In this document: one piece after another, positions 27,088-33,160 of the stretch
How the letters are laid out: each line of letters starts with the position of its first letter
Position numbering within the stretch: position 1 is the first letter of the stretch
Assembly: GCA_013036095.1 (NCBI GenBank)
Contig: JAAXCW010000006.1
Location: 62,001-126,000, forward strand
DNA from: Vulcanimicrobiota bacterium
Lineage (GTDB): Bacteria > Vulcanimicrobiota > Vulcanimicrobiia > Vulcanimicrobiales > Vulcanimicrobiaceae
Direction of reading: 5' to 3'
DNA: 64,000 nt
The notes under the pieces: generated by a model
Database searches by the model: none
What the model was told of the DNA's origin: nothing
Seen by the model: only the letters and a program-made list of their open reading frames with translations
Made by a program: the position numbers and the translations under genes

Positions 27088-27550
27088 TTGCGCCGTCCAC
27101 GCGATCGTTCGGGCTGGTTTCGTAACCGACGAGCACCGAGCGGTGCAGATCCGCGCGAATATCCGGGGAGAGCGGAAAGAAGAGCGCGACATAGAGCAGC
27201 AGCCAAATCAGCACGACCGCTTTCATGATTCCAATCGCCGCGCCGCCTAGGGCGTTTCCCAATCCCAAAAACGGCAGCTTGGTCACGGTATTCAGCGCGC
27301 GCGCAATCAGCAAGATCGCCACGTAGGTTGCCAGGCCGACCAAAAACATCGCGACGACGTGCGCCGACCCTCTGCCCAAATGAAGCGTCGTCTGAAAGAA
27401 CCCGTCGACCGATCCCCGGTAGAACCATGGCACGATGACCGATGCGGCGAGCGCGACGAATCCGCTCAGCTCCAGAATGAAGCCGCGCTTATAACCTTTG
27501 AGCGCCGCGATCAAAACGATGGCGCCGATCAGGATATCCGGCCAAATCAT
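27020..27550 (-). CDS. cvpA: CvpA-family membrane protein
   Basis: 176 aa with four transmembrane helices. The N-terminus WPDILIGAIVLIAALKGYKRGFILELSG, split here by its helices, is the CvpA signature (GxxxG after TM1), and a second Gly-rich segment LGLGNALGGAAIGIMKA follows. CvpA proteins are linked to colicin V production and envelope homeostasis. It overlaps the pheT stop by 4 nt, so pheS-pheT-cvpA form an operon, as near pheST in Firmicutes. Confidence 0.85.
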   Translation of the reverse strand: MIWPDILIGAIVLIAALKGYKRGFILELSGFVALAASVIVPWFYRGSVDGFFQTTLHLGRGSAHVVAMFLVGLATYVAILLIARALNTVTKLPFLGLGNALGGAAIGIMKAVVLIWLLLYVALFFPLSPDIRADLHRSVLVGYETSPNDRVDGAIIGTFPWFARPFAHYFFAHHRV

Positions 27551-29910
27551 GCGCGCAGCGTCACGCCAAACGCCGCGCGCAGCGCCGGGACGGCCTTTCC
27601 GATGACGGCGTCGGCTTCAGCGTCGGTGATCGTGGAATCGGGTTTTTGCAGCGTCACGCGGATGGCCACGCTTTTCTTACCGGCAGGCACTTGCGGACCG
27701 CGATATTCGTCGAACGCGGTTACCGCCGTGCACCACGCGCCGGCGGCCGATCGCAGCGCGTTCTCGAGCCGCTGCGCCGGCAAATCGGCGTCGCATACGA
27801 GCGCGAGATCGCGATACGTTGCCGGAAACTTCGACGGCGGTTTGAACTGCGGAACGTCGTACGGAGGCAAGGCCGACAAGATCATGCGGCAGGCGTAGAC
27901 GGGCAGACGTACTCCAAAGGTTCGCACGAGGCGCGGATCGACTTCCCCGACGACCGCAATTTCGCGTCCGTCCATGAGAACGACTCCGGTTTTTCCGGGA
28001 TGAAAACCATCGCGTTGGTCCGCGGCTGTTTCGAACCGGCTTCGTCCCGTCATCGCTCGCAGGAAGGCTTCGCAGTCGCCCTTCGCGCGCAGAAAGTTCT
28101 CGTCGCGCCACTGCGCCTCGGCTGCGGGTGCCGCCGAAAAAGCGAAGAACGCCATCGGCGTTTCCAGGGGCTGGCGATCCTCGGTAAAAAAGATGCGGCC
28201 GATCTCAAAGGCGCGATCGGGACCGGTTGCACGTGCGAGATGCGTGAGCATCGCCGGTCCGAGTGAATGGCGCATGTAGCGTTGCTCCTCGCTCAGCGGA
28301 TTGAGGACTTCCACCGGCCGCGCGGGCGGTTCAACGCCCGCTCGCCGGATTTTTTCGTAGACGTGCGCGCCGTGCAGCGAGTACGAGACGATTTCGCGAT
28401 ACCCCAAAGCGGCGAGCGTCGCGGCCACTTTACGTTCGCGCCGGTAGTCGCCGCTGGGGATGTCGTGCGTGCGCACGGCCGGAATCTCGGATGCGATCAA
28501 GTCGTAGCCGGCCATTCGCGCAATCTCTTCGATGACGTCCGCGCTGCATGTAACGTCCGTGCGCCAAGCTGGCGATACAACGCGGAGCACACCGTCCGCG
28601 AGCGCTTCGACTTTAAAACCCAGCCCATCGAGCCGCTCGGTTATGTCTTGCAACTGCAGCTCGTATCCTAAGAGCCGCTTCACGTCGGTGATTTTGAAAT
28701 CGATCGGTTCGGCCGCGATGAGCGGTTGGCCGAACGCAGCCGGTTCGTGCGGCGTGGCGCCGGCTTGCGCCAGCAGCTGCGCGGCGCGCGCTGCGCCCAC
28801 AGCGGTTAACGCCGGGGCGAGCGACTTCTCGTGCCGCGAACTCGCTTCGGTGCGAACGCCGAGCTGCCCGGCCGTCCGGCGGATGCGCGGTCCGCTGAAG
28901 TTGGCAGATTCGAGTATGAGGTCGGTCGTTTGGGCGGTGACTTCGCTGCTGCGCGCGCCCATCAAGCCGGCCAGACACTCCGCCGAACTTTCGCTTGCAA
29001 TCACCAGCGCTTGCGAATTCAATTCGTGCTCCGAGCCGTCCAGCGCAACGAACCGTTCTCCCGCGCGCGCATCGCGCACGATCAAATGACGGTGCGGAAT
29101 CTTGGCGGCGTCGTAAAAGTGCAGCGGCTGCGCCGTCTCCAGCATGACGTAATTCGAAATATCGACGAGCCCGTTGATGGGACGCTGCCCGGCGAGCGCG
29201 AGGCGGATGCGCATCCATGCCGGAGACGCCCCGCTCTTCACTCCGCTGAAAATCTGCGATACGAACCGCCGACAGTCCGGCGACTCGATCGTGACTTCAG
29301 CTTTCGGGCCGCCCGCGCCGTCTCCGGGATTTGAAAGCTCCGGCGCGCGCAGCGGAACGTTTTGATAAGCGGCGAGCTCGCGCGCCAGTCCGATAATCGA
29401 CATGGCGTCCACGCGGTTGCTCGTGATTTCGACGTCGAACACCGCTTCGCTCAGCCGAAAGTATTCGACGACGTCAGTCCCGGGCTGAAGGGACTCTTCG
29501 AACTGCATGATGCCGTCTTCGAACCACTCTGCGGGGAGCGCGAGCTCGCCGGCGGAGATCATCATGCCTTCCGATTCCAGGCCGCGCATTTTCCGACGCT
29601 CGATCGTCAGCTGGGGAAGACGCGCGCCGATCGTGGCGACGGCGATGGTTTGACCGGCGGCGACGTTCGTCGCGGCCGTTGCAACGGTGAGGGGCGTTCC
29701 GTCGCCGACGTCGATGCGCCCGACTTGCAAACGATCGGCGTCGGGATGTTTACCGAGTTCCGCGATGCGCCCCGCGATCACGCCCGTGATGATCGGACGC
29801 GTTTCGATCGCCGCAACCGGAAAGCCGAGCAGCGCCAGCATCTCTGCAACCGCGCCGGCATCGGCCGGCAGCTCGACGTAGTCGCGAAGCCAGCCTAGAG
29901 GAACGCGCAT
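27547..29910 (-). CDS. pheT: PheT, phenylalanyl-tRNA synthetase beta subunit
   Basis: 787 aa. The N-terminal tRNA-binding (EMAP-like) domain has GRIAELGKHPDADRLQVG near residue 48. The B3/B4 editing region and B5 domain (YDLIASEIP region) follow, and a C-terminal FDX-ACB anticodon-binding domain contains SKFPATYRDLALVCD. Together with PheS it forms the (alpha-beta)2 enzyme that charges tRNA-Phe. It begins immediately after the pheS stop. Confidence 0.96.
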   Translation of the reverse strand: MRVPLGWLRDYVELPADAGAVAEMLALLGFPVAAIETRPIITGVIAGRIAELGKHPDADRLQVGRIDVGDGTPLTVATAATNVAAGQTIAVATIGARLPQLTIERRKMRGLESEGMMISAGELALPAEWFEDGIMQFEESLQPGTDVVEYFRLSEAVFDVEITSNRVDAMSIIGLARELAAYQNVPLRAPELSNPGDGAGGPKAEVTIESPDCRRFVSQIFSGVKSGASPAWMRIRLALAGQRPINGLVDISNYVMLETAQPLHFYDAAKIPHRHLIVRDARAGERFVALDGSEHELNSQALVIASESSAECLAGLMGARSSEVTAQTTDLILESANFSGPRIRRTAGQLGVRTEASSRHEKSLAPALTAVGAARAAQLLAQAGATPHEPAAFGQPLIAAEPIDFKITDVKRLLGYELQLQDITERLDGLGFKVEALADGVLRVVSPAWRTDVTCSADVIEEIARMAGYDLIASEIPAVRTHDIPSGDYRRERKVAATLAALGYREIVSYSLHGAHVYEKIRRAGVEPPARPVEVLNPLSEEQRYMRHSLGPAMLTHLARATGPDRAFEIGRIFFTEDRQPLETPMAFFAFSAAPAAEAQWRDENFLRAKGDCEAFLRAMTGRSRFETAADQRDGFHPGKTGVVLMDGREIAVVGEVDPRLVRTFGVRLPVYACRMILSALPPYDVPQFKPPSKFPATYRDLALVCDADLPAQRLENALRSAAGAWCTAVTAFDEYRGPQVPAGKKSVAIRVTLQKPDSTITDAEADAVIGKAVPALRAAFGVTLRA

Positions 29911-30942
29911 TTAGGCCAGCTGTTCCAAGAACGCGTCGTCGTTTTCGAAGAAGCGGCGGATGTCGTCCACGTCGTAACGCACGAGCGCCATGCGCTCGAC
30001 GCCAAAGCCGAACGCCCAGCCCGAATAGACATCCGGATCGTAGTCGACGTTGCGCAGAACGTTCGGGTGCACCATGCCGGCGCCGCCCAACTCGATCCAG
30101 CCCGAACCGCCGCACATGCGGCATTCGCCGCCCGCACCGCGGCAAAGCGGGCACGTCGTATCCACTTCCGCGCTCGGCTCCGTGAACGGAAAATACGATG
30201 GGCGGAACCGGACTTGCTGTTCGGATCCAAAGAGCTCGCGGCACATGCCGGTAAGCATGCCCTTGAGGTGTCCCATGTGCACCCCTTCGTCGACCAGCAA
30301 ACCTTCGCACTGGTTGAACTGATAGAGATGCCGCGCGTCAACTGCGTCGCGGCGGTAGCACGTGCCGGGCACGACCACGGCGACCGGCGGACGGTGCTGC
30401 TGCATCGTGCGGATCTGCATCGGCGAGGTGTGCGGCCGTAACAAGAGATTGGGCGTGAGGAAGAACGAGTCGAATCCTTCGCGCGCAGGATGTTCCGGCG
30501 GGATGTTCAGCGCGTCGAAATTGTAATAGTCGGGCTCGATCTCCGGGCCGACGACGACGGCGAAACCGTGGCGTTCGAAATAGGCGCACACGTCGTGCAT
30601 CACGCGCTTCATCGGATGAATCGAACCTTGCTGCGGCGGAATCGAAGGAAACGTCACGTCGATTCGCTGTGACAAGCTCGCTCCAACTTCGATCGCTTCG
30701 GCCTTCGCTTGCGCCTCGTTCAGTGCGCGTTCCATTTTTTCGACCGCTTCGTTGATGCGTTGCCCGGCGGCGGGGCGCTCGGCCGGCGGAAGCTTTCCGA
30801 TCGATCTGCGGACCGCCGTGACGTCTCCGCTGCGCCCGAGGAACGCGACGCGCACGGCGTCGAGCGAGTCGGCGCCGGCAGAGTTTTTTAGCGCGTCCTC
30901 AAACCGGGCGCGCAAGTCTTCTAAAGCATCGATGAGGTTCAT
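29911..30942 (-). CDS. pheS: PheS, phenylalanyl-tRNA synthetase alpha subunit
   Basis: 343-aa class II catalytic subunit. It has an N-terminal coiled coil (residues 1-85), HPMKRVMHDVCAYFERHGF, motif 2 with LLRPHTSPMQIRTM, a Cys cluster CPLCRGAGGECRMCGGSGW (seen in many bacterial PheS), and motif 3 GFGVERMALVRYDV. The ATG at 30942 has no ribosome binding site: the T tract of a terminator hairpin lies directly in front of it. Confidence 0.96.
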   Translation of the reverse strand: MNLIDALEDLRARFEDALKNSAGADSLDAVRVAFLGRSGDVTAVRRSIGKLPPAERPAAGQRINEAVEKMERALNEAQAKAEAIEVGASLSQRIDVTFPSIPPQQGSIHPMKRVMHDVCAYFERHGFAVVVGPEIEPDYYNFDALNIPPEHPAREGFDSFFLTPNLLLRPHTSPMQIRTMQQHRPPVAVVVPGTCYRRDAVDARHLYQFNQCEGLLVDEGVHMGHLKGMLTGMCRELFGSEQQVRFRPSYFPFTEPSAEVDTTCPLCRGAGGECRMCGGSGWIELGGAGMVHPNVLRNVDYDPDVYSGWAFGFGVERMALVRYDVDDIRRFFENDDAFLEQLA

Positions 30943-30980
30943 GAAAAATAAAAACGCCCGGGGTTACTTTCCGGGCGCTT
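30943..30980 (-). terminator. Terminator/attenuator directly before pheS
   Basis: On the minus strand the stem GCGCCCGG / CCGGGCG (plus coordinates 30971-30978 and 30955-30961) is followed by TTTTTATTTTT, which runs up to the pheS ATG at 30942. It ends the yqzL-like transcript or attenuates pheST. The 5' arm CGCCCGG recurs at 31116-31122, just upstream of the yqzL-like ribosome binding site, so the 3' arm has an alternative partner. Confidence 0.75.
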
Positions 30981-31003
30981 TGGAGTCCGCCTTTTCGTCT
31001 TTT

Positions 31004-31105
31004 TCAGGTTGGAACCGACGTCGGGTGGAGCTGCCGGTAAATCAGATATGCGTTGATCGATCCCGTTGACTTGAAGAGTTTCCAGAAGAACTCGGACGTG
31101 GCCAT
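31004..31105 (-). CDS. YqzL-like small protein (33 aa) in the pheS leader
   Basis: ATG 31105 is preceded by AAGGAG (31110-31115) at 4-nt spacing. It encodes a 33-aa peptide beginning MATSEFFWKLFKSTGSINAY and continuing LIYRQLHPTSVPT. The pattern FxWKxFxxTGxIxAYLxY matches, from memory, the YqzL-like family of small Firmicutes proteins of unknown function. Three Phe codons occur in the first eleven codons, so it could also serve as a translated leader peptide sensing charged tRNA-Phe. It lies between trmH and the pre-pheS terminator. Confidence 0.7.
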   Translation of the reverse strand: MATSEFFWKLFKSTGSINAYLIYRQLHPTSVPT

Positions 31106-31120
31106 CGGTCTCCTTCCGGG

Positions 31121-31136
31121 CGGGCCTACAGGCCCG
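31121..31136 (-). other. Leader hairpin upstream of the yqzL-like ORF
   Basis: CGGGCC (31121-31126) and GGCCCG (31131-31136) form a perfect 6-bp stem with a 4-nt loop, just 5' of the ribosome binding site on the minus strand. One arm overlaps the CCGGGCG at 31116-31122, which could pair with the terminator arms near pheS. Confidence 0.5.
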
Positions 31137-31155
31137 GCCCCCGTGCGGTGCAAGC

Positions 31156-31164
31156 AGTATAGCA
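31156..31164 (-). promoter_or_regulatory. Extended -10 promoter of the yqzL-like/pheST leader
   Basis: Read on the minus strand, TGCTATACT (hexamer at 31156-31161) is an extended -10 element. Transcription would start near 31149, giving a leader of about 200 nt before pheS. No good -35 was found, as is usual for extended -10 promoters. Confidence 0.55.
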
Positions 31165-31204
31165 CGCGACTTTTCCACAGGGTAGTCTTGACTTTTTGGC
31201 CTGT

Positions 31205-31975
31205 CTAGACTCTCTTGACAGAATTTCGGGTGGCCTCATAGAGAGCGATTCCCCCTGCCACGGCGGCATTCAAACTTTCGGCTTCACCGTTCATCGGAAT
31301 GGCCGCCAGCCGCGAGCAGAGGGGCGCCCACGGCCCCAAGCCCCGGCGCTCTTGGCCAACGACCAAAACGCTCTTTAAGCCCCAGGAGAGCCCTCCAATC
31401 GGCTCGCCGTGGGAGGCCAGGCCGGTTATTTCCCAACCGGCTGCCGCGGCGGCGGTCTCTTCCGGATCCGCTACTGCCAGCTTCAGCCGGAAGAGCGAAC
31501 CCATGGCGCCGCGGACCACTTTGGGAGAGTGCGGCTCGACCGCGCCCGAGCCGAAAACGACGGCGGATGCGCCGAACGCCTCGGCAGCTCGCAGCAGGGT
31601 TCCCGCGTTTCCCGGATCGCTCAAGCCGGCCAGCGCCAAGACCAAGCCGGGAGCCGCAAAGAGCTCGGAGACCGGGAACAGCTCGATCGGTGCGACGGCG
31701 AGCAAACCGGGCGCGGTTTGGAGATCCGAGAGCCGGCGCATCGTGCGCTCGTCAACTCTGTAGACTTGCGCCCCGGTCGATTCCGCTTCGCGCGCGCTCT
31801 CCGACGTTTCGAGCGCTTCGGGCGTGCCGTATACCTCTTCGATCGAAACGCCGCTGCGCAGCGCTTCGCGCAAAAGCGTCGTGCCTTCGATCGCAAAATG
31901 CCCGTATTCGCGCCGGCCTTTTTTCGTGCGCAGCGCGCGTACCCGATCTATTCGCGGATTATGGGCGCCGAGCAT
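31205..31975 (-). CDS. TrmH/SpoU-family RNA 2'-O-methyltransferase
   Basis: 256-aa SPOUT methyltransferase for rRNA or tRNA ribose methylation with SAM. The N-terminal substrate-binding domain is followed by motif 1 DPGNAGTLLRAAEAFGA, motif 2 LVVGQERRGL and motif 3 IPMNGEAESLNAAVAGGIAL, which form the trefoil-knot SAM site. In B. subtilis a trmH-like gene (ysgA) also lies upstream of pheST. The target nucleotide is unknown. Confidence 0.92.
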   Translation of the reverse strand: MLGAHNPRIDRVRALRTKKGRREYGHFAIEGTTLLREALRSGVSIEEVYGTPEALETSESAREAESTGAQVYRVDERTMRRLSDLQTAPGLLAVAPIELFPVSELFAAPGLVLALAGLSDPGNAGTLLRAAEAFGASAVVFGSGAVEPHSPKVVRGAMGSLFRLKLAVADPEETAAAAAGWEITGLASHGEPIGGLSWGLKSVLVVGQERRGLGPWAPLCSRLAAIPMNGEAESLNAAVAGGIALYEATRNSVKRV

Positions 31976-32835: not shown

Positions 32836-33126
32836 ATGGAGGCTGCGGTGAATACTCCACGGGACATTAACGAGGTCCTCAAATATCTTTTGAGCGATGG
32901 CAAGCAAGAGCACATCGCGGCTTCCGTATTGGCAGCCGACGACGAAGCCTATCTCAACAAGCTCATCGCCGCCGTGCGTGCCGGGAAGCGCGCCGTGCTC
33001 ATCGTTGAGGACTCCGACGACAAACTCAAGTACATGTTCAGCAACGCCTCTCGCGCGGAGGCTGTGAGTATGCTCGGCAAAGTTATCGAGGCCACCGGAC
33101 GCCGGTTAGCTAACGGCGACGACTGA
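32836..33126 (+). CDS. Small protein of unknown function
   Basis: 96 aa, acidic, mixed alpha/beta (VLKYLLSDGKQEHIAASVLA..., KRAVLIVEDSDDKLKYMFSN, SRAEAVSMLGKVIEATG). No cysteines, signal or membrane segment, and no recognised family. It stands alone between the NUDIX gene and a good terminator. An in-frame GTG six codons in is an alternative start. Confidence 0.6.
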   Translation: MEAAVNTPRDINEVLKYLLSDGKQEHIAASVLAADDEAYLNKLIAAVRAGKRAVLIVEDSDDKLKYMFSNASRAEAVSMLGKVIEATGRRLANGDD

Positions 33127-33130
33127 AGAG

Positions 33131-33160
33131 AAACGAGGGCTTTCGCCCTCGTTTTTATTT
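33131..33160 (+). terminator. Terminator between the small ORF and rplT (possibly bidirectional)
   Basis: AAACGAGGGC (33131-33140), loop TTTC and GCCCTCGTTT (33145-33154) form a 10-bp stem followed by TTATTTT. It overlaps the end of the converging rplT gene and may serve both strands, though the minus-strand T tail is weaker. Confidence 0.85.

Follow-up and report, generated by a model that had tools for sequence, protein, structure and literature searches.

The phenylalanyl-tRNA synthetase operon pheST of this genome is headed by an ordinary gene of the small-protein family YqzL, which probably has its own promoter and terminator and stands in an old gene order from which a T-box was lost, with pheST expressed by read-through. 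The new part is comparative, namely an apparently ancient yqzL-pheST unit in which the T-box seems to have been replaced by a bare, sequence-frozen terminator. The sequences compared here directly show the genes and their order, the hairpin, how it is conserved and paired, and that a T-box is absent. The Phe codons of yqzL look like a family trait and not like a phenylalanine sensor, and the locus is not supported as a Phe attenuator.

Organization of the Locus

We analyzed a stretch of 64,000 nucleotides, called the window below. Its minus strand is the coding strand for the SpoU methylase, yqzL, the hairpin, pheS and pheT, with the pheS ATG at 30942. The features are the following.

31205-31975, minus strand: SpoU-family RNA 2'-O-methyltransferase gene (Pfam SpoU_methylase, 100 bits), the upstream partner of yqzL in the conserved order
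31181-31192, minus strand: promoter-upstream block GTCAAGACTACC, conserved in relatives, the only exact match genome-wide
31168-31196, minus strand: direct repeat AAAAGTC-N15-AAAAGTC just 5' of the -10, the sole exact match in the genome, with the spacing kept in many relatives
31156-31164, minus strand: extended -10 element TGCTATACT of the yqzL promoter, from the sequence; TGnTATACT or near variants in most relatives
31110-31115, minus strand: yqzL Shine-Dalgarno AAGGAG (family mean anti-SD duplex -8.4 kcal/mol)
31004-31105, minus strand: yqzL, 33-aa YqzL-family protein (Pfam PF14006, 34.1 bits; within-genus pN/pS 0.14)
30951-30981, minus strand: hairpin of the intrinsic terminator, AAAGCGCCCGG / CCGGGCGTTTT; its exact stem occurs nowhere else in the genome, and 82/82 scored family genomes of 35 genera have the hairpin
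30943-30954, minus strand: U tract TTTTTATTTTTC, from the sequence, overlapping the last stem bases and ending at the pheS start codon
29911-30942, minus strand: pheS, phenylalanyl-tRNA synthetase alpha (TIGR00468, 297.9 bits, cut-off 237.45), without Shine-Dalgarno
27547-29910, minus strand: pheT, phenylalanyl-tRNA synthetase beta (Pfam B3_4, B5, FDX-ACB)

In the window, 61 nt separate the yqzL stop from pheS. The yqzL ORF was found 5' of pheS in 103 Eremiobacterota genomes, 84 of them from the window's family. Outside this family, the linkage is mostly seen in sister families and in a few distant ones, including one distant-family genome (G007) where the two genes are linked at a larger distance. 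Partial or variant linkage was found in three more genomes. The SpoU gene lies 5' of yqzL in most of the Eremiobacterota, Bacillota and neighboring-phylum loci examined. By this comparison, SpoU methylase-yqzL-terminator-pheS-pheT appears to be an ancient gene order.

Several outgroup Eremiobacterota families carry a tandem yqzL pair before pheS, for example at L163 (genome G006), L169 (G012) and L170 (G013), and in the second yqzL of these three pairs FYW replaces FW. The window also holds a 96-aa gene (32836-33126) without a Pfam match above cut-off, which is followed by a hairpin terminator (around 33130-33158) that is lost within the genus.

The YqzL Protein

The ORF (ATG at 31105, stop at 31004) translates as MATSEFFWKLFKSTGSINAYLIYRQLHPTSVPT. 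It had been called YqzL-like from its pattern, and a Pfam search places it in the family, with 34.1 bits against a PF14006 gathering score of 27. The conserved W, F, TGS and AYL.Y positions of YqzL are likewise present, whereas the C-terminus is shorter than that of the 44-position profile. The window genome encodes only one YqzL, and the protein was found in 130 of the 149 genomes sampled from the phylum (84/85 of the good genomes). The ORF is conserved across the window's family rather than missing from relatives, and its within-genus pN/pS of 0.139 points to purifying selection on yqzL as a protein. Our literature search found no paper on the function of YqzL, just a passing full-text mention, and the YqzL profile gave no match in the PDB.

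Whereas the window yqzL is linked to pheS, some Bacillota yqzL genes (L249, L264, L266, L289 and others) lie directly ahead of a gene that looks recO-like when the beginning of its protein is read by eye. Most of the yqzL genes that are unlinked to pheS still have a hairpin and T run 3' of them, in these cases preceding lptA-like, cvpA-like (both named by eye from protein starts) or other genes.

Promoter and Translation Signals

The extended -10 proposed ahead of yqzL reads TGC-TATACT (31164-31156) in the window and is real, being conserved across the family. The good ribosome binding site attributed to the ORF is also present, as AAGGAG at 31115-31110. For pheS, the preliminary description had noted that a ribosome binding site is lacking; indeed, there is no Shine-Dalgarno, and the anti-SD signal of this gene is weak throughout the family (mean -2.7 kcal/mol versus -8.4 kcal/mol for yqzL).

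Upstream of the -10, the AAAAGTC repeat and the GTCAAGACTACC block could form a putative operator of some regulator. In some relatives, the block is a palindrome, CAAG-A-CTTG. A regulon for either element was considered and rejected, since there is no second exact site and loose matches do not exceed a reversed control; looser matches to the AAAAGTC repeat with 2 mismatches are at background level in the genome.

The Terminator Hairpin Preceding pheS

The hairpin (30981-30951) has a predicted energy of -18.2 kcal/mol (z of -2.9 versus dinucleotide shuffles, 2 of 200 shuffles being equally good) and was missed by a generic terminator scan because its loop is 9 nt. As originally described, it is strong and is followed by the T tract TTTTTATTTTTC and directly by the ATG at 30942. 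The description of a terminator abutting pheS holds for the window, where the gap is only 8 nt, but not as a conserved trait, as the gap ranges from 7 to 53 nt within the genus. With its GC-rich stem, U tract and compensating pairs, the structure has the marks of an intrinsic terminator, although some genera have a weak U tract.

The hairpin was retained in all 82 family genomes that were scored, covering 35 genera; one member (G091) could not be scored, and another (G035) seems to be without it. The core pairs of the CGCCCGG/CCGGGCG stem are intact in 77-82 of these 82 genomes. The flanking pairs change on both sides with pairing kept (GC, AT or GT at pair -1; TA or CG at pair 7). The core, nearly frozen over the 35 genera, shows a constancy well beyond the needs of a plain terminator. 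A genome-wide terminator habit does not explain this constancy, given that the exact stem occurs once in the genome.

At L062, L063, L141, L145 and L146, the repeat CCTTCGACAAGCTCAGGATGAC (or near variants) was seen between the terminator and pheS; it is not found in the window.

Comparison with T-box Leaders in Other Phyla

Named genomes were scanned with a YqzL-core DNA pattern, and the matches listed, which are a sample, are mostly from Bacillota. The order SpoU methylase, yqzL, T-box, pheS was found in Bacillota too. Among the matches listed, an Rfam T-box match was obtained at 16/16 tested Bacillota loci with yqzL-pheS linkage (8 exceed the gathering score, and the other 8 fall short of it with E < 1e-9), and the T-box motif, with at most 2 mismatches, at 39 of 53 linked loci. 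In the neighboring phylum (that of L309, titled Armatimonadetes in its record), the motif is present at 24 of 28 linked loci; in Rfam, the weaker ones have E-values up to 0.003, with none reaching the gathering score. T-box control of synthetases is known in Firmicutes (PMC1262725).

By contrast, a T-box was found in only 3 of the 149 Eremiobacterota genomes and in none of the window's class. Across the 103 Eremiobacterota yqzL-pheS gaps, the T-box motif does not rise above the shuffled level. An Rfam scan of the window gave nothing at gathering and, in the leader, no more than chance-level matches, and no RF00230 covariance-model match lies between yqzL and pheS. The Bacillota pheST T-box leader (RF00230) sits between yqzL and pheS and has the intrinsic terminator last. 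The window terminator has the same placement, but stem I, the T-box sequence and the room for them (61 nt) are all lacking. A T-box-like AAGGGTACCGC at the yqzL start sites of some genera was rejected as a candidate, as it precedes the ORF and is far from a complete T-box motif.

Since the T-box occupies the same place in two other phyla, it was probably lost in Eremiobacterota and not gained elsewhere. A plain terminator without the T-box was also found at L313, L293, L297 and L262 in Bacillota and at L373, L376 and L378, which form one clade, in the neighboring phylum. Moreover, L375 has a shortened T-box after the yqzL stop, consisting of AGGGTGGTATCGCG and a terminator before pheS, with no room for stem I.

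Are the Phe Codons of yqzL a Sensor?

The preliminary description presented the leader as arranged like an attenuator, with yqzL doubling as leader peptide. Part of this arrangement stands: the YqzL gene, its promoter, the conserved terminator and a position that a T-box occupies elsewhere. The Phe-sensing leader peptide does not. Classical attenuation would have ribosomes stall at the yqzL Phe codons when charged tRNA-Phe is scarce, an antiterminator form, and pheST be read. Phe codons are indeed present at positions 6, 7 and 11, a conserved terminator lies ahead of pheS, and other phyla have T-box control at the same site, all of which would suit such a mechanism. However, only Phe 7 and Phe 11 are constant, equally so in recO-linked Bacillota YqzL, while codon 6 encodes F, L, R, V or I among relatives. 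The Phe residues are thus a family trait whether or not yqzL is linked to pheS, and the leader is not enriched in Phe beyond the family, with a mean per protein of 2.37 in pheS-linked Eremiobacterota versus 2.42 in the recO type and 2.27 in unlinked Eremiobacterota. The pheS-linked Bacillota YqzL, most with a T-box, reach 3.19 owing to the Phe that they usually have at position 6, and phylogeny could be the cause of this higher number.

The second half of an attenuator, the alternative pairing, fares no better. The CGCCCGG of the terminator arm (30977-30971) does recur beside the yqzL ribosome binding site (31122-31116), about 145 nt away, but as a pairing arm it is private to the window genome: of five congeners, four have CGCCCAG on the RBS side and the fifth has a divergent sequence. 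In the 82 genomes, pairing of either terminator arm with the leader 5' of it does not exceed the shuffled level (mean z around +0.27 and +0.26), and the best alternative pairing has -15.3 kcal/mol, versus -23.6 kcal/mol for the terminator stem. The Phe codons are also some 100 nt away from the terminator, and no fewer than 22 nt lie between the yqzL stop and the hairpin, a distance at which the footprint of a terminating ribosome would not reach the hairpin. That unlinked yqzL genes have terminators as well also speaks against attenuation. We therefore regard Phe attenuation as very improbable. In E. coli, pheST is controlled by an attenuator with a Phe-rich leader peptide. Both systems have a short ORF and a terminator before pheST, but the window ORF belongs instead to a conserved protein family in which two Phe codons are constant, and its leader has no antiterminator and a terminator far from these codons. 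Classical attenuation of pheST is known in gamma-proteobacteria (PMC1262725).

How pheST May Be Expressed

A strong terminator before an essential operon calls for read-through, antitermination or an internal promoter. We favor read-through as the probable explanation. yqzL would be a conserved gene for a small protein, equipped with an extended -10 promoter and an intrinsic terminator of its own, the latter being the compact remnant left when the T-box sensor was lost in Eremiobacterota. The predicted hairpin would stop most yqzL transcripts, and the fraction reading through would give the pheST mRNA, so that the pheST level would be set by terminator strength and not by the yqzL Phe codons. 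Three observations sit uneasily with a plain terminator: the constancy of the core stem, the apparent lack of a hairpin in G035, and -10-like loops in a subclade.

The first of these could mean that a protein (perhaps YqzL or PheRS) or a small RNA recognizes the frozen hairpin and controls read-through into pheST. The near-invariance of the core although flanking pairs vary, the single occurrence of the exact stem in the genome and the age of the yqzL-pheS linkage would all agree with such recognition, as would the loss within the genus of a nearby control terminator (a single control). However, the sister family has a different stem, GGCCGC/GCGGCC, that is likewise constant, and both the binding partner and the regulation are purely putative; we consider this unlikely. 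A bolder version, in which post-T-box Eremiobacterota have an undescribed antitermination system acting on the frozen yqzL terminator, possibly with YqzL as regulator, appears quite unlikely. The -10-like loops raise another alternative, in which a promoter of pheS lies within the terminator or immediately 3' of it and the hairpin merely isolates yqzL from pheST. In several genera (L086, L087, L115, L116, L125 and similar loci), the terminator loop reads TATAAT, TATAGT or TATGAT, resembling TANNNT, so that pheS may have its own promoter in this subclade, with starts falling in the 3' arm. Such a loop is nevertheless missing in the window genome and in its genus as a whole, the loops when read by eye show no apparent -35 or extended -10, and the window offers only the 8 nt between hairpin and pheS. 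An internal promoter is therefore an improbable source of pheST mRNA.

The locus links an uncharacterized protein family, YqzL, to a pheST gene order that appears to be ancient and is shared by at least three phyla. It would also exemplify a riboswitch that was repeatedly reduced to a bare terminator, shortened intermediate included. How an essential synthetase operon is controlled after the loss of its T-box becomes a testable question.
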